A stretch of 25,201 bases of DNA from a virus: the IMG/VR virus record IMGVR_UViG_3300003691_000046, positions 1 through 25,201 of that record. One strand, given 5' to 3'. The notes below the pieces were generated by a model. The model did no database searches. It was given only the letters and a program-made list of their open reading frames with translations, and was not told where the DNA came from. Of the stretch, positions 2,884 through 24,042 are shown piece after piece; within the stretch, counting starts at the first letter, position 1, and the number at the start of each line of letters is the position of its first letter. The translations under genes were made by a program, and so were the position numbers.

Positions 2884-3069
2884 TTAAATATCATTTAAAT
2901 ATTGCATTATAGCTTTTTTAACTTCATATTTAACTGATGCGTACCCATTCAATTGAGCCGTTAATCCGCTATAAGTTAGATCAGCTTTATTTTTGATTTG
3001 GTATCTATCATAAAACCATCTTATATTTCTTCCGTCTTCTTTAATCTTCTTCTTAAAATTTTCAACCAT
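2884..3069 (-). CDS. Small helix-turn-helix-like DNA-binding protein
   Basis: A 61-residue basic protein begins MVENFKKKIKEDGRNIRWFYDRY. The second half (LTYSGLTAQLNGYASVKYEVKKAI) resembles the recognition-helix part of small Cro/XRE-like phage regulators, in which a short turn precedes an SxLxAxLNGYA-type helix. I assign no name. It lies upstream of the initiator and dnaB with a 45-base gap, so it heads or joins the replication operon. Its own upstream region holds a terminator hairpin and a 10-bp inverted repeat over a -35 box, as expected for a self-regulated gene. The function is an inference from fold-like pattern and context. Confidence 0.6.
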   Translation of the reverse strand: MVENFKKKIKEDGRNIRWFYDRYQIKNKADLTYSGLTAQLNGYASVKYEVKKAIMQYLNDI

Positions 3070-3100: not shown

Positions 3101-3144
3101 AACAAAATAAAACCCACCTCAATCAACAGTAACTAAGGCGGGTT
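3101..3144 (-). terminator. Rho-independent terminator (minus strand)
   Basis: On the minus strand AACCCGCCTTAGTT pairs with GATTGAGGTGGGTT around a 6-base loop (3111-3144), giving 14 pairs with several G-U, followed by a T-rich tail. On the plus strand the G-U pairs become A-C mismatches, so it is specific to minus transcripts. It lies between 3302-3604 and 2884-3069 and could also attenuate transcription of the HTH-like gene. Confidence 0.75.
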
Positions 3145-3198
3145 CGAGTCAAGCTATAGCATTGTCGCTATTATTTAAATTTTATAGTACCTCATAAA

Positions 3199-3232
3199 AT
3201 TGTCAATAGCTAAATTTAATAATATTGACAAT
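3199..3232. promoter_or_regulatory. Perfect 10-bp inverted repeat over -35 sequences; possible operator
   Basis: ATTGTCAATA (3199-3208) and TATTGACAAT (3223-3232) form a perfect inverted repeat with 14 bases between. Each arm contains a TTGACA -35 hexamer, one facing each way. On the minus strand TTGACA is followed by TATAAA after only 14 bases, so its promoter strength is doubtful. It may be an operator for the nearby HTH-like protein. Confidence 0.45.
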
Positions 3233-4532: not shown

Positions 4533-4560
4533 AAAAAACCCATCTCGAAGATGAAATGGG
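4533..4560 (-). terminator. Rho-independent terminator (minus strand)
   Basis: CCCATTTC pairs with GAGATGGG around a 6-base loop (one G-U pair), followed by six T on the minus strand. It starts 12 bases after the stop of the gene at 4573-4857, closing that transcription unit. Confidence 0.8.
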
Positions 4561-7343: not shown

Positions 7344-7598
7344 TTAAACTAGTAAATCTTCTGGAGTTTCATTAAATAAAAAACAATCAATCTCAAAAAA
7401 AGATCGTATTCTGTCAATAAACAGTATTTGACACATTGTCCAATCGTGATTTGCTAATAAGACTCCGCCATTTTCTTCTTTAGTTCCGTTTTTTATCTTA
7501 TGTTTACGCATAACTGAATAAAACATATCAAGGCAATCTTTAAATGTATCTGTTTCCTTAAACTTCAAATTTATCAATTCTTCTGCTATATCTCTCAT
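7344..7598 (-). CDS. Hypothetical protein, 84 aa
   Basis: An acidic 84-residue protein, MRDIAEELINLKFKETDTFK onward, probably mostly helical. GGAG lies 8 bases ahead of the ATG, supporting this start. No known motif. It is the first gene after a short gap (7599-7634) downstream of a secreted protein gene. Confidence 0.65.
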   Translation of the reverse strand: MRDIAEELINLKFKETDTFKDCLDMFYSVMRKHKIKNGTKEENGGVLLANHDWTMCQILFIDRIRSFFEIDCFLFNETPEDLLV

Positions 7599-7634
7599 TT
7601 TTTAACTCCAACTTAGGTTGTAAATATATTTGTA

Positions 7635-11042: not shown

Positions 11043-11081
11043 TATTTTTTTTAATTCACTCGATTTCTATGGTTTTAAAAC

Positions 11082-11128
11082 AAAAAAGCCCCAACCAACG
11101 CAACGGAGAATAACGTCAATCAAGGCTT
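11082..11128 (-). terminator. Rho-independent terminator with long G-U-rich stem
   Basis: On the minus strand AAGCCTTGATTGACG pairs over all 15 positions with CGTTGGTTGGGGCTT (six G-U) around a 13-base loop, followed by TTTTTTG. It ends the transcript carrying the kinase, DUF3310, ASCH and nuclease genes. The opposite strand would have six mismatches. Confidence 0.8.
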
Positions 11129-11789: not shown

Positions 11790-12098
11790 TTATGCTGTAA
11801 TAGGCTTTAAATCTTTAATAAATATTCGAGCTATATAAATGTTCAATTCTCCGTAAATTGCCTTTATAGACTCTGTATCTCGATCATTAAACGCCGTCCC
11901 ATGCTGACAAGCAAATTGCCAAATTATACCTTTCATTCTATCGTGTTTTCCATATCCTTTTGACAAAATTACTTCACGGCCAATTTTACAAGTCTCGTTA
12001 TTCCATCGCTTTCCAAAAAGTCTCAACTCTTCAGTTTTTGCGCCAGATTTAAAGGCTTCATAATATTCTGTTTTCAGTGGGATAAATAGTGGTTTCAT
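11790..12098 (-). CDS. ASCH domain protein
   Basis: A 102-residue ASCH-domain protein (PUA-like beta barrel thought to bind RNA or modified nucleotides). Signature residues are visible: KTEYYEAFKSGAKTEELRLF near the start (the G-K-x-E-x-R region), then the CKIGREVILSKGYGKHDR strand pair. Known ASCH proteins include a cytidine-derivative hydrolase (YqfB) and RNA-binding regulators, so base or nucleotide processing is the likeliest area of work, as inference. It is in an operon with the nuclease (3-base gap) and DUF3310. Confidence 0.85.
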   Translation of the reverse strand: MKPLFIPLKTEYYEAFKSGAKTEELRLFGKRWNNETCKIGREVILSKGYGKHDRMKGIIWQFACQHGTAFNDRDTESIKAIYGELNIYIARIFIKDLKPITA

Positions 12099-12101
12099 GT
12101 T

Positions 12102-12557
12102 TTAAAATATTTTTTCTAAATCATTATTTTTGTGAACTCTTCGCAGTGCTGAACAAAGCATTGTAATTTCTGACGGTGTATGTGTTTTAAACGTTGGCCA
12201 ATTACACCATATATTTCCTTCAGGAGCTAATATTTTTTTAACTTTGCATTTTTCATCGACAACTAAAAATCCCCATTTTTCAGGAATATCTCGGATAGTT
12301 AATAATCCTTCAGGAGCCATATAAAAACGATATTTGCCCACGCCAAGATATTCATGTTTTCTGAAATCTTTCTTTTGATCAGCAAAAAAATCAGATCGAG
12401 ACGTTTTGCATTCAATTAACACAGAGTATCCATTTTTCCATCCAATAGCGTCTGGTTGTTCAAGAGTATAAGTGGTCAATTCTTTAAATGCAAAAGAACA
12501 TCTAGCAGATTTTAAAAGCCAATTATACGCAACCTCAACAAGTTCTGAGTGAGTCAT
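12102..12557 (-). CDS. PD-(D/E)XK nuclease-like protein (MmcB/VRR-like)
   Basis: A 151-residue restriction-fold nuclease. The catalytic core is visible as QPDAIG, then VLIECKTSRSDFFADQKKDF: Asp of the PD motif, then Glu-x-Lys, with the SRSDFxADxK tail typical of MmcB-like and related phage proteins. The C-terminal part (KWGFLVVDEKCKVKKI) completes the sheet. I start it at the ATG at 12557 (MTHSELVEVAYNWL) rather than an in-frame TTG at 12593, because the latter lies inside a terminator stem. No Shine-Dalgarno sequence is visible. The probable role is DNA repair or cutting of damaged or branched DNA. It heads an operon directly after the RNA terminator. Confidence 0.78.
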   Translation of the reverse strand: MTHSELVEVAYNWLLKSARCSFAFKELTTYTLEQPDAIGWKNGYSVLIECKTSRSDFFADQKKDFRKHEYLGVGKYRFYMAPEGLLTIRDIPEKWGFLVVDEKCKVKKILAPEGNIWCNWPTFKTHTPSEITMLCSALRRVHKNNDLEKIF

Positions 12558-12578
12558 ATATTTTTTATAGGTATAATA

Positions 12579-12753
12579 TAAAAAATGCCTCAAATGAAAT
12601 TAATCAAATGAAGCATTTGAGCTAATCATGATCAAAGCGATAAGAGGGAGCTTTAAGAGTCTATAGCCCGCTAAAACAAGACTCCGATTCGATTTCTATA
12701 ATGTTGTGTTAAAGCTAAAAAATTAAATCAAATCATCTTACCGCTTACTTGGT
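12579..12753 (-). ncRNA. Candidate structured non-coding RNA (about 170 nt)
   Basis: Between a strong promoter (12789-12760) and a T-tailed hairpin there is no open frame but a nested set of stems. Outer stem: GCGGTAAGA (12744-12736) with TCTTATCGC (12645-12637), 9 pairs. Middle stem: AGCTTTAA (12716-12709) with TTAAAGCT (12656-12649), 8 perfect pairs. Inner stem: GAGTCT (12684-12679) with AGACTC (12662-12657), abutting the middle stem. TATAG (12700-12696) can also pair with CTATA (12666-12662) to give an H-type pseudoknot. I do not recognise the family. It could be a free small RNA or a leader of the nuclease operon. Confidence 0.65.
12580..12618 (-). terminator. Terminator of the candidate RNA
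   Basis: AAATGCTTCA pairs with TGAGGCATTT (12618-12609 with 12592-12583, one G-U) and is followed by a run of T on the minus strand. An alternative perfect stem CTCAAATG/CATTTGAG overlaps it. It separates the RNA from the nuclease gene. Confidence 0.7.
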
Positions 12754-12759
12754 ATACAC

Positions 12760-12789
12760 AATATATCAAAATCATTTTACTTCTGTCAA
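12760..12789 (-). promoter_or_regulatory. Sigma70-like promoter of the candidate RNA
   Basis: TTGACA (12789-12784), an 18-base spacer and TATATT (12765-12760). It has the same geometry as the promoter at 10561-10590. It lies within the 3' end of the weakly supported gene at 12772-12981. Confidence 0.7.
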
Positions 12790-12981
12790 CAACTTTTCTT
12801 TCATTTTGTAAAAATAATTTAAAACTTTTCTTCTTTTCCAAATTCCTGTAACATTCTTTGCCTTTAATTGCTCAATAAAATCTTGATGTTCTTCAATCGA
12901 ATCTTCAGACACAATATAAATCTGTTGATGATTTTTAAAGCAATCTGTTATTTGTATTATTTTATGTGCTGAATTATTCAA
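12772..12981 (-). CDS. Doubtful small protein, 69 aa, possibly the remnant of a longer frame
   Basis: A 69-codon frame with a TTG start and no ribosome binding site. The product (NNSAHKIIQITDCFKNHQQI... ending KMKEKLLTEVK) has a plausible mixed alpha/beta pattern, so it may be coding. The same frame is open upstream for another 39 codons to a TAA at 13099-13101, and beyond that stop continues, in the same frame, the 16-codon ATG frame at 13149-13099. So this may be the 3' part of a gene broken by one stop, or a gene with a non-standard start. No family is recognised. Confidence 0.4.
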   Translation of the reverse strand: MNNSAHKIIQITDCFKNHQQIYIVSEDSIEEHQDFIEQLKAKNVTGIWKRRKVLNYFYKMKEKLLTEVK

Positions 12982-13098
12982 GTGTTTATTTTCTGTAAAT
13001 GCGCCGCTATTTAAAATAGGCCCGACATTATGAATTAATAATATATGAGGTTGAGCAAACCAAAAATCATGAGCCGAGCCTAAAAAATCAAAATGTAA

Positions 13099-13149
13099 TT
13101 ATTTCTTGCGACTAAACATATTTTTTAAATCGCCGTATTTAGATTTCAT
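13099..13149 (-). CDS. 16-codon frame (MKSKYGDLKNMFSRKK), leader or gene start
   Basis: An ATG overlaps the stop codon of the 13149-13487 gene (TAATG), followed by 16 codons of a basic peptide and a TAA. The peptide is in the same frame as the downstream open stretch to 12772. It could be a tiny gene, or the original start of the gene whose remnant is 12772-12981. Confidence 0.3.
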   Translation of the reverse strand: MKSKYGDLKNMFSRKK

Positions 13150-13487
13150 TATCTATCAACTTCAACATAAGATTCAGGATATTTTTTGCAAGCGTTTAAA
13201 TATTTCTCAACCCATGGAACAAAATTTTCATATACACCCCATTTATTAGGAGAATCGTATTGTTTGAAATATTTAGGACGAGCTTTTAAATCAGCTAACC
13301 CTCTTTCTAATGCCATGATTATATGTTTTGCCCTTGTCGCGTTAATCTCTTCAGGTCTCCATAGTTCCTTATAAATTACGGCGGCTTCAGCCATTTCCGT
13401 AAGATTATGTGTTATATTGGCTTCAAATAAATAAAATCGGTTACCTGTGATTTTTCCTATGTCATATAAACTTACATCTAAACTCAT
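13149..13487 (-). CDS. Conserved hypothetical phage protein, 112 aa
   Basis: A 112-residue protein: MSLDVSLYD, ANITHNLTEMAEAAVIYKEL, WRPEEI, then MALERGLADLKARP and WVEKYLNACKKYPESYVEV. This order of blocks recurs in phage proteins of unknown function (mostly helical, one domain). A strong AGGAG ribosome binding site precedes the ATG, and the promoter TTGACA/TATACT lies 20 bases upstream. Its stop overlaps the start of a 16-codon frame. Confidence 0.8.
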   Translation of the reverse strand: MSLDVSLYDIGKITGNRFYLFEANITHNLTEMAEAAVIYKELWRPEEINATRAKHIIMALERGLADLKARPKYFKQYDSPNKWGVYENFVPWVEKYLNACKKYPESYVEVDR

Positions 13488-13535: not shown

Positions 13536-14423
13536 TTAAAAAAATGGGAAAATTTTGTTTAATAATTTTTTCCACACTAGTTTTTTTGTGTCAATCTTAA
13601 TGTGTCGTACCTCAAAAATATTGTATCCATTGAATTTATACTCTAATATTAATTCTTCAGATGTATATATTTTATCAACTAAACCAGTTTTAATTGCCTC
13701 TTGCGCCGTCCATATCTCACCAGTAGCTATTTTTTCAATATCAAGCTTTGGTCTATTCTTTTTAACGAAATCTTTAAATTGATTAAATATCCTATTCACA
13801 AAATCTTGCTGATGTTTCCTATCATTATCTGTTATAGGCGCAAATATTGGAACACCGCCTTTATATTTTCCCGCCGTAAATCTCTCATAGACGATTCCAA
13901 GTTCATCCATAATTCCTGAAAAATTAGGAACTCCAGAATATACCCCGATTGAGCCGATATAACTAAAAGGAGCTGCGATAATTTCATCTGCGACACATGC
14001 CATCATATATCCGCCTGACGCTGCTACCCTGTCAACTGAAATTATAAGTTTAAGTCCAGCATTTCTGATTCTCAATAACTCATATGCTCCTAAACCATAA
14101 ACATGTGCTGCTCCGCCATGACTTTCTAATCTTACCAAAACATGATCTTTTTGATTGGAGTTTTCAATTATACTCGTAATAGTTTTTTGTAAATTATCAA
14201 CTTGACTGCCTTTTTTGTCTCCTTTAAAATCAACAACAAATAATCTTTTCTTGTAACTATTAGTTTTCTTAAAAATTTGAGTTATTTTACTTGAATACTC
14301 CTGAATATCTTTTATTTTTAAATTTATTTTTTCGTTACCATGAGAATTGAAAAATATTAAACCAAAAATAAATATAACAAAAACAATACTAGTAGCCAAA
14401 ATAATCTTTTTATTCATTTTCAT
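13536..14423 (-). CDS. sohB: SohB/SppA-type membrane peptidase (S49 family)
   Basis: A 295-residue serine peptidase of family S49, closest in layout to bacterial SohB. Residues 5-26 are a membrane anchor or signal (KIILATSIVFVIFIFGLIFF). The core begins RLFVVDFKGD; VRLESHGGAAHVYGLG is a family motif; VDRVAASGGYMMACVAD holds the nucleophile Ser136; and TAGKYKGGVP holds the base Lys188. ATGEIWTAQEAIKTGLVD is the usual late block. With an N-terminal anchor the catalytic domain would face the periplasm, where SohB/SppA digest signal peptides or misfolded proteins. A full-length SohB is unusual in a phage and may come from a host. A terminator lies just upstream and the gene after it has its own promoter, so it stands as its own unit. 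Confidence 0.92.
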   Translation of the reverse strand: MKMNKKIILATSIVFVIFIFGLIFFNSHGNEKINLKIKDIQEYSSKITQIFKKTNSYKKRLFVVDFKGDKKGSQVDNLQKTITSIIENSNQKDHVLVRLESHGGAAHVYGLGAYELLRIRNAGLKLIISVDRVAASGGYMMACVADEIIAAPFSYIGSIGVYSGVPNFSGIMDELGIVYERFTAGKYKGGVPIFAPITDNDRKHQQDFVNRIFNQFKDFVKKNRPKLDIEKIATGEIWTAQEAIKTGLVDKIYTSEELILEYKFNGYNIFEVRHIKIDTKKLVWKKLLNKIFPFF

Positions 14424-14438
14424 ATCACTGCGTTTATA

Positions 14439-14467
14439 ATTTTATTAATGTAAAAAAGGTCTAACAA
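14439..14467 (-). promoter_or_regulatory. Possible promoter of the sohB-like gene
   Basis: TTGTTA (14467-14462), a 17-base spacer and TAAAAT (14444-14439). The -35 lies within the terminator stem of the preceding operon, an economical arrangement, but the match is moderate. Confidence 0.3.
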
Positions 14468-14491
14468 TATTCAGCTAAATATTGCCAGACC
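14452..14491 (-). terminator. Rho-independent terminator (minus strand)
   Basis: GGTCTGGCAATATT pairs with AATATTGTTAGACC (12 standard and two G-U pairs, sharing a small loop), followed by TTTTTT. On the plus strand two A-C mismatches break the stem. It closes the operon from 16591 to 14511. Confidence 0.85.
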
Positions 14492-18152: not shown

Positions 18153-20960
18153 TTAGCTACATCCTTGACTATCGCCGCATGTAGAACAAACAAAACATGT
18201 TCCGGTTCTTAAAAAATCAACTCCACCACAATTTGAGCATGGTTGATGATTGCCAGAATCTACTTTTACATCTATCAACGGCTCAGAAAAACCGATATTA
18301 TGTTCACCAATATTTTCATTACTATTAGTTAAATAATACCTTTCTAATGTCCTAAAAATAGCATCTGGAATAGATGTGGCCGTCTTTAAGAATGGATGTC
18401 CAGTTACCATTCCACGCGGTTCAAATTTAGTAAAAGAAAATTTATTAACTAATGTTTTTACTGGTACTCCATGTTGCAAGCAATATGAAATACTAATAGC
18501 AAATTGATCCATTAATGAACGTACCGTTGATCCTTCCTTGTATCCAAGATCAATGAATATTTCGGCCAAACTTCCATCTTCATATTCACCGCTTCTAAGG
18601 AAAACTTTTTCGCCAGCTACTTTAAACTCCCAAGTCTTTCCATCTCTTACATTTGGAGGTTTATGAGATTTACCCCATTTTAATTTTTTGTCTACTATCT
18701 TGGTGTCCCCAAGTTTTCCAGTTACAACTATATCAGATTTTGAACCATCAGATTTTTCAATTGACCCTAAAACTTGTTTTTCACTGCTTTCTTTTTTAGT
18801 TGTCAACGGTTGCGATCCTTTTGATCCGTCTCGATAAACTGTGACTGCCTTCAATCCGCGTTTCCACGACTCGATAAATACGTTTTTTATATCTTCAACT
18901 GTTGCGTCATTGGGCAATGAAATTGTTTTACTAATAGATCCTGATAAAAATGGTTGAACAGCTTCTAGCATTTTAACATGTCCCATCGGTTCAATAAAAC
19001 GCTTGCCGCTTCCTGACTGCATGGCACAATCGAAAATGGGGAGATGTTTATCGTATAATCCATTGGTTATATTTTCTTCAAAATTACCAAAATGTTCTAT
19101 ATCTATCATCAATGTGCCAATATGTTTTTCACTATACCCTAAATTTTCCAAAGCTTGTTTAACTGAGCTATTTACCATTTTTAAGTTTCCACCGCCAGCC
19201 AAAGCTTTGTAGCTTACTAGTGAAAATGCTGGTTCAACTCCTGTTGTGTCACAGCCCATAAGCAAACCTATTGTCCCGCAAGGCGCGGCAACTGAGGCTT
19301 GTGCATTGCGAAATTTAGGTGTTTCTTCATGATCGGCTACTTTATCCCATATTTTCCTGGCTGAATCAGCTAAATATTCTAGTCTTGCATCACCTTCATA
19401 GTATGTCAAATTAACTAACTTCTCATTACATTGATAATGCTTTTCCAATACATCATCCATTGGCACTTTATTTTTTTCATATTTATCAAACGCGCCTAAT
19501 TTCTCAGCTAATTCCGCACTTGTTTTGTAGGCAGTGCCAGTCATAATGCTAGTCACTAAACTAGCAAAATCTCTTCCTTCATCGCTATCATAAGCATAGC
19601 CAGCAAGCATTAGCAATGTTCCAAGATTAGAATAACCCAGTCCCAAAGGTCTAAATTCATGGGAATTTTTAGCAATTTCTTTTGTTGGATAACTACCTAA
19701 GTCTACCAAAATATCTTGTGCTGTCATGAATATTCGGCAAGCTTTTTGGAATGATTCATGGTCGAATTTTACATCCTTAAAGAATTTAGCTAAATTTAAA
19801 CTTGACAAATTACAAGCTGAATCGGCAAGAAACATAAACTCGCTACATGGATTCGACGACTTAATTTTACCCGACTCTTTACATGTATTCCAATTATTAA
19901 TTGTTGTATCAAACTGAACTCCAGGATCAGCAACTTTCCATTCGGCTTTACAAATTTTATCAAAAATATAGCGAGCTTTTAAAATCTCACAAACTTCTCC
20001 GTCAGTCCTGTTTATCAGCGACCAATCCTCATCATTTTCAACCGCTTTCATAAAAGAGTCGGTTAGCCTGACCGCATTATTGCTATTTTGTCCGCTAACA
20101 GTCGCATAAGCTTCGCCGTTAAAATCAGAATCATAACCTTGAGCAATTAAAGCTTTTGCTTTATCTTCTTCAACAATTTTCCAATCAATGAAATCTAAAA
20201 TTTCAGGATGATCAACGTCTAAAGCCCTTAAAACTGCACTTCTGCGAGTAACTCCACCACTCTTAATGGCTCCTGCCGCGCTATCAAGTACCTTTAAAAA
20301 GCTCATCAGCCCAGAACTTTTACCACCACCACTAAGTTGCTCATTAGCCCCACGCAAATTAGACATATTGGAACCACTCCCACTGCCGTACTTAAATATA
20401 GAAGCTTCATTCTTAATAAGTTCAAAAATACTCATCAAGTCATCATCTACTGACTGAATAAAACACGCGCTTACTTGCGGTCGTTCGTATTGATTTTCTG
20501 GCTGATAATAATCGTCGCACCCAAAATCGTAAATCCAATTTTGACCAGTTCCTTGAATATTATATTTATTCCAAAGCCCAACATTAAACCATACCGGACT
20601 ATTAAAAGCTCCATATTGATTAATTAAAAGCCATTTAAGATCATTAATGAAATTAAATTTTGATGTAGATGACGCAAAATAATTATGCCAACACCCAAAT
20701 TCTGCAATTGTATCCACAACCCTATCAACAACTTGTTTCAGACTCCACTCATGGCCGCGATCGTTTGGCACTCCTGATTTCCTGAAATATTTAGACGCTA
20801 ATATATTAGCCGCCAACTGACTCCAAGATTCTGGAACCTCAACGTCTTTCATCTCGAATTTAATATTGCCGTCATTGTCTTTTATTTGACAATCTATAAT
20901 TTTCCATTTTATTTCGTTATATGGCTGGTCTGTATCGCAAAAATGTTTTTTAAATTTCAC
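18153..20960 (-). CDS. nrdJ: Adenosylcobalamin-dependent (class II) ribonucleotide reductase
   Basis: A 935-residue class II reductase that makes deoxyribonucleotides for phage DNA synthesis using vitamin B12, without oxygen dependence. Family marks in order: FNSPVWFNVGL and SACFIQSVDD near residue 120-170, KYGSGSGSNMSNLRG, KSGGVTRRSAVLR, the catalytic NPCSEF with ACNLSSLNL, AAPCGTIGLLMGCDTTGVEP, and AVTVYRDGSKGSQ. A C-terminal TSCPD-type domain (SVTKFEPRG-like, here FTKFEPRG) follows, and the tail has the CSNCGG and CxxCGDSQGCS thiols used for re-reduction. A GTG start (20960) has AAGGAAG 6 bases upstream and overlaps the stop of the DUF5662 gene. No intein or split is visible. The host or medium would need to supply B12. 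Confidence 0.96.
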   Translation of the reverse strand: MKFKKHFCDTDQPYNEIKWKIIDCQIKDNDGNIKFEMKDVEVPESWSQLAANILASKYFRKSGVPNDRGHEWSLKQVVDRVVDTIAEFGCWHNYFASSTSKFNFINDLKWLLINQYGAFNSPVWFNVGLWNKYNIQGTGQNWIYDFGCDDYYQPENQYERPQVSACFIQSVDDDLMSIFELIKNEASIFKYGSGSGSNMSNLRGANEQLSGGGKSSGLMSFLKVLDSAAGAIKSGGVTRRSAVLRALDVDHPEILDFIDWKIVEEDKAKALIAQGYDSDFNGEAYATVSGQNSNNAVRLTDSFMKAVENDEDWSLINRTDGEVCEILKARYIFDKICKAEWKVADPGVQFDTTINNWNTCKESGKIKSSNPCSEFMFLADSACNLSSLNLAKFFKDVKFDHESFQKACRIFMTAQDILVDLGSYPTKEIAKNSHEFRPLGLGYSNLGTLLMLAGYAYDSDEGRDFASLVTSIMTGTAYKTSAELAEKLGAFDKYEKNKVPMDDVLEKHYQCNEKLVNLTYYEGDARLEYLADSARKIWDKVADHEETPKFRNAQASVAAPCGTIGLLMGCDTTGVEPAFSLVSYKALAGGGNLKMVNSSVKQALENLGYSEKHIGTLMIDIEHFGNFEENITNGLYDKHLPIFDCAMQSGSGKRFIEPMGHVKMLEAVQPFLSGSISKTISLPNDATVEDIKNVFIESWKRGLKAVTVYRDGSKGSQPLTTKKESSEKQVLGSIEKSDGSKSDIVVTGKLGDTKIVDKKLKWGKSHKPPNVRDGKTWEFKVAGEKVFLRSGEYEDGSLAEIFIDLGYKEGSTVRSLMDQFAISISYCLQHGVPVKTLVNKFSFTKFEPRGMVTGHPFLKTATSIPDAIFRTLERYYLTNSNENIGEHNIGFSEPLIDVKVDSGNHQPCSNCGGVDFLRTGTCFVCSTCGDSQGCS

Positions 20961-21517
20961 TAATCTTCCTTAGTTGATAGCAGGTTTTTAACAACTCCAT
21001 TGAAAATATGAATATATAATTCGATCCATTCTCTTGTATCTTCCGACAATATCATTTTAGACCTATTTTTGTTATAAAAAGATGACGGTTTATCATTGAA
21101 TTTTAAACTCATAGCAGACCAATCACAAAGCATTTCGATAATATAATTAAATGGCATATCAAGCACTTTATATCCTGTATCATCAACTAAAACCCAGTAC
21201 TCCCAATGATGTAAATTGTATTTCTGATGATGATTCCATGCAACCTCAAACTGCTGTTTAATAAGTTCTGGAAATATTTTATCATTATCGTTTGGGAAAA
21301 AATTAGCTTGATAAGGTTTAAACTCCTCAAAAGACTTTTTTGAGTGATCATGTATTGCAATTTGCTTGTCAATCACATGACAATGCGCATCATCAAGTTT
21401 TCTTTCCTGATTATTTTTAATTTTATCCCATATTAATTTTACATTCTCAATATGTTCTTCAATATAGGATTGATATTTTTTTTCTTGATCTGAAAGTGGT
21501 ATCTTATGATTATTCAT
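20960..21517 (-). CDS. DUF5662 protein
   Basis: A 185-residue DUF5662 protein, mostly helical with an HD-like metal site pattern: CHVIDKQIAIHDHSKKSFEE (His/Asp pairs), then FEVAWNHHQKYNLHHWEYW, and MPFNYIIEMLCDWSAMSLKF. Members are found in phages and some bacteria; the activity is unknown, although the HDHSK and HH residues suggest a hydrolase. It lies between the SNF2 helicase (8-base overlap) and nrdJ (start/stop overlap), so it belongs to the nucleotide operon. Confidence 0.85.
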   Translation of the reverse strand: MNNHKIPLSDQEKKYQSYIEEHIENVKLIWDKIKNNQERKLDDAHCHVIDKQIAIHDHSKKSFEEFKPYQANFFPNDNDKIFPELIKQQFEVAWNHHQKYNLHHWEYWVLVDDTGYKVLDMPFNYIIEMLCDWSAMSLKFNDKPSSFYNKNRSKMILSEDTREWIELYIHIFNGVVKNLLSTKED

Positions 21518-23147
21518 TGTTATTATTATCTATATTGTTAATAAAATATTTCTCTTGTTCAATTATTAGATTTTCCCATGAATCGCTTTTAAGATTAACA
21601 TTATCCATTATCGGTTTCTCTAAATCTGTTATTGGAACCCATACGTCTAAATGTTTTTCTTGACCACGCCTATAACATCTTCTTAATGACTGATAAAACT
21701 TTTCATATGAATCACTAATGCCATAATATATCATTTTATTAACATGCTGCAAATTCAATCCAAATCCAGCTATTTTTGGTTTTGTGATCAATATACGTAT
21801 GCCACCATTAATAAAATCATTTATAATCGTGGATTTATCATCAAGCTTTGTTTTGCCATTAATAATTTTGTAATCGTTATGCCCTTGAAAGATTTCAGCT
21901 AATTTATTTTCTTCATAATCTAGCTCAACCCATATCAAAAATTGTTCATTCGGGAACTCATTATAGCATTTTCTATAAACATATTGTGGTTTATATGAAT
22001 AAATATCTGTTACTGTTTTCTTTTTATTTATAGTTTTATAAAAAAAACCTCTGGAAATTTGAGCAAGTTTATTTCTTATTGTAATTCCTTTAGGTATTTT
22101 ATCAATATTAATATCTTCATCTTCAAAAAAATCTTGCTGCCATTTTTTACTGTCTTGGTTTTTATGTTTATTATCGAATATAAATGTCTTTACATTAGTA
22201 TTCTGGTCATATGTTAAACCAATGTCATCAATATGTAAGTAATATTCTGGCGGTAACTTTGTATTATCATTAAATCCAAATTTGTCAGGATGGCGCATTA
22301 TAACAGACCATGAATTTAAATACGCATAAAATTTAGATTTAGCATGCGGTCTTAATATCCATTTTGTTTGATCTTTAAAATCTTTTTGAAACCAATCACC
22401 AAAGAATTGAGAGTAAGTTTTTATTTTACCCAAAAAAAGCGCATGATTTGCTAGTTCAGCGTAATCATTTGGAGCAGGAGTGGCTGATGCTGCACATCTA
22501 AATTCTATCCCAGCCTTATTGCAACTTGAAATAATATTGCGACCGTACACACCATTTTCAGATTTTAAAATTGAACTTTCATCAAGTATAAATCCACTTA
22601 TCCCCAACAAGTCCTTTTCTTTTTTAAAGAATTCAAAATTAATTAATCCTATTTTGTCATTAGAATTTTTAAAATCTTCTAATGAGCTATTTCTGATATT
22701 ATGTATTTTTAAATTTTGATAAAATTTATCAATTTCTCTTTCAAATTGAGATAATACCATTAAAGGACAAACTATCAATGATTTTATATTATTCTTAGCT
22801 AATTGACTAGCTATTTCAATTTCGATTGATGTTTTACCTAATCCTGTATCAAGAAATAGCGCAAACTTTTTTTTATTTAGGCATATATTCGTAAAAAACT
22901 TTTGGTAATCAAATAGATGGTTAGACAGCTCACTAAAATTATTATGAGAATCGACTAAATTTAAATTAATTTTATCGGTCACAATGTATGGTTTCTCATC
23001 AATATACTCAAAATCATAACTAGGTAATGATGATCTGAGCCACATAAATAAATTATAATCATCAATATTATAATTATCCCCGATTTTAATTTTAGCTATA
23101 TCCCTATCTATTATTATGTTTTCAGACTTTATTTTATCAATAATCAT
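21510..23147 (-). CDS. SNF2-family DEAD/H helicase
   Basis: A 545-residue SNF2-type translocase. Motif I LDTGLGKTSIEI at about 98; SLIVCPLMVLSQFERE (Ia); motif II FILDESS, a DESS form instead of DEAH; motif III AASATPAPNDYAEL; and in the second lobe AGFGLNLQHVNKMIYYG and the arginine-finger motif VI SYEKFYQSLRRCYRRGQ. It probably translocates on double-stranded DNA. It follows the methylase directly (1-base gap), a pairing seen in several phages and possibly used to scan and methylate, or to remodel, incoming DNA. No ribosome binding site is evident, so it may be coupled to the methylase. Confidence 0.92.
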   Translation of the reverse strand: MIIDKIKSENIIIDRDIAKIKIGDNYNIDDYNLFMWLRSSLPSYDFEYIDEKPYIVTDKINLNLVDSHNNFSELSNHLFDYQKFFTNICLNKKKFALFLDTGLGKTSIEIEIASQLAKNNIKSLIVCPLMVLSQFEREIDKFYQNLKIHNIRNSSLEDFKNSNDKIGLINFEFFKKEKDLLGISGFILDESSILKSENGVYGRNIISSCNKAGIEFRCAASATPAPNDYAELANHALFLGKIKTYSQFFGDWFQKDFKDQTKWILRPHAKSKFYAYLNSWSVIMRHPDKFGFNDNTKLPPEYYLHIDDIGLTYDQNTNVKTFIFDNKHKNQDSKKWQQDFFEDEDINIDKIPKGITIRNKLAQISRGFFYKTINKKKTVTDIYSYKPQYVYRKCYNEFPNEQFLIWVELDYEENKLAEIFQGHNDYKIINGKTKLDDKSTIINDFINGGIRILITKPKIAGFGLNLQHVNKMIYYGISDSYEKFYQSLRRCYRRGQEKHLDVWVPITDLEKPIMDNVNLKSDSWENLIIEQEKYFINNIDNNNNE

Positions 23148-23148
23148 A

Positions 23149-24042
23149 TTAAAATTGTGATTGTATACTTTTTTTAGACTCTAATTTATCAAGATTCTTT
23201 TTCATTTGATCGAAATAACTATCTTTTAGCTCTATAGCGGTTGCGTGTTGCCCCAATTTTAAAAATTGATACGGTTCTGATCCAATGCCACCATATGGGG
23301 AAAAACATTTTTCTCCGGGATTGCAATACATCATAGTAATGCGTTCAATAACTGTCAATTGAAGTGGACATACATGTTTTTCTCTATCATTTTCTTTAGT
23401 GCCACGCACTTGTAACGTGTCAGATTCTTTAATATCAGTCCAAATTCCTGATGCCCATTCGATCCATGTATCTTTGTCGAATCTAGCAGGTTTTACTGGT
23501 TTTGATCTGTCACCAGGCTTCTTAAATAACACTACATAATCATTATAGCATGGAGCTAGTTTTGCAGTATCGCGTCCATGTGTTGCCATCGTTAACGTAC
23601 TGGCATGAGTTCTTATGCTGACCGCTTGCTGATTTTTCTTAATAACAAACTCTCCATACATATTAAATCCAGCGCGGCACATTCCAGCCCTTACCATAGA
23701 ATGAAAATCTCTTATACCAGTATATCCATGATTTACTTGCGTAGCTATAAGATTTGATAGATGTATCGCCGTCACAGTTCCTGGCTTCATAACCCTAAAA
23801 AGTTGCTTTGCAGTTATCACCCATGTATAAAAAAATTCACCTTTATTCTCTATATCATTGTGATTCAAAGAATTATCTCTGCAATTACCTTGATCTTCAA
23901 TCTTACTTGAGTATGTAAATAAATCAGCGAACGGTAATGAAAATACTGATAAATCAAACTCATTTTCTGGAATATAATCAGCCATAGTCGTTACACAATC
24001 GCCATTATATATTCTATAGTTTATTCCTTCTTTTATTCTCAT
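23149..24042 (-). CDS. Beta-class DNA methyltransferase (N6-adenine or N4-cytosine)
   Basis: A 297-residue DNA methylase. The catalytic motif IV comes first (LSVFSLPFADLFTYSS, about residue 35) and the SAM motif I last (CFSPYGGIGSEPYQF, about 250), the beta-class order. Motif IV reads SLPF where [DNS]PP[YFW] is usual, so the first proline is lost; a family variant or weak activity is possible. The middle (GYTGIRDFHSMVRAGMCRAG) holds the target-binding part. It overlaps the HD gene by 4 bases and is followed by the SNF2 helicase. It may protect phage DNA from host restriction. Confidence 0.88.
   Translation of the reverse strand: MRIKEGINYRIYNGDCVTTMADYIPENEFDLSVFSLPFADLFTYSSKIEDQGNCRDNSLNHNDIENKGEFFYTWVITAKQLFRVMKPGTVTAIHLSNLIATQVNHGYTGIRDFHSMVRAGMCRAGFNMYGEFVIKKNQQAVSIRTHASTLTMATHGRDTAKLAPCYNDYVVLFKKPGDRSKPVKPARFDKDTWIEWASGIWTDIKESDTLQVRGTKENDREKHVCPLQLTVIERITMMYCNPGEKCFSPYGGIGSEPYQFLKLGQHATAIELKDSYFDQMKKNLDKLESKKSIQSQF

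Follow-up and report, generated by a model that had tools for sequence, protein, structure and literature searches.

The 25.2-kb virus record analysed here, the window, whose positions serve as coordinates throughout, likely encodes a small structured RNA that belongs to no known family. On the minus strand, a near-consensus promoter is followed in the ORF-poor gap 12558-12789 by a stretch able to fold and then by an intrinsic terminator, and the best, partly supported, reading of this arrangement is that a structured RNA has a transcription unit of its own. Judged from sequence only, the locus has the general mark of a phage intergenic small RNA, a promoter and a terminator of its own around an ORF-free stretch. 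We consider the chances roughly even that this is a stand-alone phage small RNA gene of about 175 nt that acts in trans. Its transcription, its termination and its independence from the nuclease operon are what we infer from these signals, and any antisense target of the RNA is speculative.

An ORF-poor gap between a predicted promoter and terminator

The recognisable phage genes of the window lie on the minus strand throughout, and of the gaps in this tightly packed genome, the one with the candidate RNA is among the two longest (Table 1). It is flanked by the putative nuclease gene (ATG 12557) and by an upstream open frame ending at 12772, with no plausible gene between them. The preliminary description had called this stretch gene-free and had named a protein frame covering the stems as an observation that would speak against a structured RNA. 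Its view of the gap is borne out. The ORF list of the window contains no long coding frame across the stems of the 12577-12753 RNA, and a frame opening at TTG-12593 touches the terminator only, ATG 12557 being the better start and the point where homologues begin. By eye, two short ORFs can be read within the candidate RNA, ATG-ATT-TGA at P1/P2 (helices described below) and one of nine codons across the terminator foot, neither of them with an obvious ribosome-binding site. The upstream frame (12772-13098, minus strand; 108 codons) lacks a good start codon and has no Pfam match, and its end overlaps the RNA promoter, within the promoter spacer; it may be a decayed gene, a frameshifted gene or an assembly error.

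Both the TTGACA-18-TATATT promoter and the T-tailed hairpin that had been described are present, and the predicted RNA start falls near 12753. Eight of the 17 minus-strand TTGACA hexamers lie in intergenic sequence, which makes up 11% of the window, and seven of these eight have a TA--(A/T)T hexamer at 15-18 nt from TTGACA. Because TTGACA is concentrated in the minus-strand gaps of the phage, the promoter at 12789-12760 is credible. A mechanical terminator scan did not list the 12618-12583 hairpin, presumably owing to its interrupted stem.

The other of the two longest gaps also carries promoter and terminator signals (3110-3232, minus strand), with TTGACA at 3206, TAAAAT at 3179 and a terminator at 3145-3110. 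An operator-like inverted repeat, ATTGTCAATA...TATTGACAAT (about 3232-3199), encloses the -35 element of this promoter. Further minus-strand terminators at 14458-14491, 4539-4560 and about 11070-11110 stand before genes with no recognisable promoter in between, which suggests leaky termination or a phage-wide antitermination.

Table 1. Features of the candidate RNA locus and of a possible target, in window coordinates
Feature	Position	Strand	Basis
Sigma-70-like promoter, TTGACA-18-TATATT with TG-extended -10	12760..12789	-	11/12 consensus matches
Predicted small RNA, about 175 nt	12577..12753	-	promoter and terminator; fold z -3.6 vs -1.0 on the other strand
P1 5′ strand, AAGCGGTAAGA, pairs with 12635-12645	12736..12746	-	pair probabilities mostly near 1.0
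P1 3′ strand, TCTTATCGCTT	12635..12645	-	folding, pair probabilities
P2 hairpin: stem 12734-12725 / 12695-12686 (10 bp), loop 12724-12696 (29 nt)	12686..12734	-	folding
P3 hairpin: stem 12685-12679 / 12662-12656 (7 bp), loop 12678-12663	12656..12685	-	pair probability 0.5-0.66
Pseudoknot strand in P2 loop, AGCTTTAA (5′ arm of the middle stem described earlier)	12709..12716	-	inverted repeat; rarity
Pseudoknot strand just 3′ of P3, TTAAAGCT (3′ arm of the middle stem described earlier)	12649..12656	-	inverted repeat; rarity
TATAG, may contact CTATA (12666-12662) in P3 loop, 5 bp	12696..12700	-	read from sequence
Intrinsic terminator: interrupted hairpin 12618-12583 (10-bp main and 3-bp inner stem) and T6 run	12577..12618	-	-15.4 kcal/mol; pair probability 0.66-1.0
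Downstream gene, probable nuclease/MmcB-like DNA repair protein	12102..12557	-	phrog_631, phrog_5429
Possible antisense target, start site GTTGGAGTTAAAAAAT of gene 7344-7598	7597..7612	-	16 contiguous pairs (several G-U) with P2 loop

Other genes of the window

Three further loci on the minus strand are of note. At 21510-24042, adjacent genes for a SNF2-type helicase and an N4/N6 DNA methylase match successive parts of the long phrog_16, and this helicase-methylase looks split in the window. The class II (B12-dependent) ribonucleotide reductase at 18153-20960 shares 47% identity with its counterpart in a 485-kb uncultured phage (LR745208.1). A SohB-type S49 peptidase with a Peptidase_S49_N domain, a domain usual in host proteins, is encoded at 13536-14423. 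Among the plasmid matches listed, the top-scoring one, 46% over 74% of the protein, comes from Candidatus Bandiella woodruffii and hints weakly that the host is a proteobacterium.

Predicted fold of the RNA

The minimum free energy (MFE) structure of the candidate core is a three-way junction formed by P1 (11 bp), P2 (10 bp with a 29-nt loop; stem strands GATTTGATTT/AAATCGAATC) and P3 (7 bp), of which P3 is the weakest helix by pair probability. The preliminary description had drawn three nested stems instead. All three exist, with corrected sizes: AAGCGGTAAGA/TCTTATCGCTT has 11 bp rather than 9, AGCTTTAA/TTAAAGCT has 8 bp, and (G)GAGTCT/AGACTC(T) has 6-7 bp. As described, the inner and middle stems have contiguous 3′ arms. 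The exact nested fit is not the minimum, as the P2 hairpin displaces the middle stem, which becomes a crossing helix; at -21.9 against -26.8 kcal/mol, the nested form is about 5 kcal/mol worse and, in the folding model, is a legitimate but less stable alternative.

Save for one base, AGCTTTAA and TTAAAGCT are unpaired in the MFE structure, and their 8 bp can form alongside it. In the model, a pseudoknot joining the P2 loop with the P3-P1 junction is thus more likely than a middle stem. The CTATA/TATAG pseudoknot proposed earlier is present as sequence, and given the three-way junction, it may instead be a 5-bp contact between the P2 and P3 loops.

When successively longer transcripts were folded in silico, the core formed first and persisted, and the terminator hairpin formed later and independently. 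The cross-pairing that we examined, an inverted repeat between the P2 5′ strand and the terminator foot, costs about 12 kcal/mol. Since core and terminator fold independently, a self-contained small RNA fits better than a riboswitch.

Search for relatives

The candidate RNA has no match among the Rfam 15 covariance models at the gathering threshold, and the whole library, searched down to an E of 10, returned chance-level matches only. This is the Rfam search that the preliminary description had proposed, and its opinion that the RNA is neither tRNA nor tmRNA holds, as ARAGORN made no such call. The c4 antisense RNA was rejected as the family, there being no match to its model (RF01695).

Sequence searches likewise yielded no relative. 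BLASTN against INPHARED phages and PLSDB plasmids gave at most short chance pieces over the candidate RNA, and exact and gapped patterns found no relative in IMG/VR or in one genome per species for about 85,000 prokaryote species; patterns from the P3 loop (28 and 14 nt) and from both pseudoknot strands hit unrelated sequence only. A covariance model built from the single sequence had no match over the fetched loci, whole viral records and 1158 sampled bacterial genomes (two classes and two phyla). Run with filters on and off, the model search found the RNA absent from loci gathered through the neighbouring proteins (29 for nuclease homologues, 13 for the 13149-13487 protein and 4 for the 11790-12098 protein). 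Six whole genomes gave a single weak match of 20.2 bits, largely without P1, and queries with the S49 protease and the ribonucleotide reductase led to no relatives.

The contig stretches reached via neighbouring proteins have at most two genes in common with the window, and no close sister phage is among them, so the absence of a homologue says little about conservation. The earlier label of an undescribed phage RNA accordingly stands at the level of sequence and model searches only. The lack of any homologue, and so of covariation or signs of conservation, weighs against a stand-alone small RNA. So far the candidate RNA is an orphan within a known kind, the phage small RNA.

Chance, read-through control or a self-contained RNA

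An ordinary promoter, UTR and intra-operon terminator in AT-rich phage DNA could fold fortuitously and have no function as a structured RNA, an explanation that we judge unlikely. Folding z scores are -3.6 for the predicted transcript strand and -1.0 for the opposite strand, so the structure is confined to the former, a point in favour of a stand-alone small RNA. By MFE alone, the 112-nt core (terminator excluded) is only mildly unusual and is unremarkable for the genome, which lends the fortuitous fold some weight: its z is -2.76, its energy is reached by 1.25% of shuffles, and 19 of 838 windows of the genome (20 shuffles each, a noisy estimate) have a stronger z. The crossing helix is rarer: at least eight Watson-Crick pairs beside the MFE structure occur in 0.15% of shuffles, and the core MFE jointly with an 8-bp crossing helix in 0 of 2000. 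Across 3586 windows of the real sequence, both strands included, a crossing helix appears in eight, none with a z below -1.3, and the combination occurs nowhere else in the 25 kb; the scan step fell off the exact core window, for which a separate score was computed. The claim that the pairing is hard to explain by chance therefore holds for the combination, but not for folding energy alone. If the fold were fortuitous, a densely packed genome would also be keeping one of its two longest gaps unused. In favour of a fortuitous fold, conservation could not be shown, and the shuffle statistics, framed after the finding had been seen, argue for selection on structure without proving it.

Control of read-through in cis is the main rival to a stand-alone small RNA, because no promoter of the nuclease gene is visible and a second unit of promoter, short RNA, terminator and gene lies at 3206-3110, ahead of gene 2884-3069 and replication genes. 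The structured RNA would then be a leader that governs the terminator before the nuclease gene, either as a riboswitch or attenuator or by modifying RNA polymerase as an antitermination element; we find this somewhat unlikely. Between the terminator and the start of the nuclease gene lie 20 nt in which no promoter-like site was recognised, an arrangement that a fully independent small RNA leaves unexplained and that speaks against it, and the other terminators before genes without an obvious promoter make read-through seem general. Leaky termination or an unrecognised promoter could serve the nuclease operon instead. The two leaders (12577-12753 and 3206-3110) are dissimilar, with no sequence likeness beyond chance, and no Rfam riboswitch or leader class matches. 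The riboswitch-like leader of the nuclease operon suggested in the preliminary description is disfavoured: core and terminator have no strand in common and coexist in the MFE structure, and the best cross-pairing found, at the cost given above, falls short of a mutually exclusive antiterminator. That a new class of phage RNA is at work, its pseudoknotted junction antiterminating the nuclease operon as RNA only (with the second, shorter unit before the replication genes) or binding a host defence or RNA-processing protein, seems to us decidedly unlikely. A decoy or mimic with a protein or a small RNA of the host as its partner, for anti-defence or host take-over, is very improbable indeed. A compact three-way junction with a pseudoknot, as predicted here, and a promoter and terminator of its own would suit such a role, for which phage RNAs that titrate host RNAs, such as AgvB, are a precedent (PMC12197685), but no Rfam model matches above chance.

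Proposed mechanism and known systems

As a stand-alone small RNA, the locus would work as follows. RNA polymerase would start at the extended sigma-70-like promoter and stop at the intrinsic terminator, giving a transcript of about 175 nt. This RNA would fold as the P1/P2/P3 three-way junction, which the 8-bp pseudoknot would lock by joining the P2 loop to the P3-P1 junction. Regulatory action would most likely be in trans, with the P2 loop opening to pair with a message around its ribosome-binding site. The best target candidate in the window is the phage gene 7344-7598, in a manner comparable to c4 antisense RNA on the ant mRNA. The pairing of the P2 loop with the start of this gene and its ribosome-binding site has a shuffle p of about 0.07, so it is a lead only and the match may be chance. 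The P3 loop and the C-rich junction show complementarity to start sites no better than shuffles.

The put RNAs of phage HK022 are antitermination RNAs that modify RNA polymerase. Compared by description, not sequence, they resemble the candidate as structured RNAs that immediately follow a phage promoter and precede terminators, whereas the predicted fold of the candidate is larger and pseudoknotted. Attenuation leaders and riboswitches have in common with it a promoter, a folded domain, an intrinsic terminator and a gene on the same strand; unlike them, the candidate has neither a strand common to core and terminator nor a competitive antiterminator, and it matches no Rfam class. The c4 antisense RNA of phages P1 and P7 (RF01695) uses loops complementary to the ribosome-binding site of a phage message and blocks ant (PMC12197685), and it is listed as a phage/Proteobacteria RNA (PMC2864571). 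Like c4, the candidate would be a phage-encoded folded RNA with a loop complementary to a phage ribosome-binding site, weakly so at the p given above. It differs from c4 in its lack of a match to that model and in its candidate target, a gene of unknown function rather than the ant antirepressor.

Few phage small RNAs are described, and most of them come from model phages. The lack of relatives shows how sparsely such RNAs have been sampled. A compact pseudoknotted RNA gene from an environmental phage that has no close relatives would extend them by a new fold, and if its target were shown, it would provide a new way of timing phage genes.
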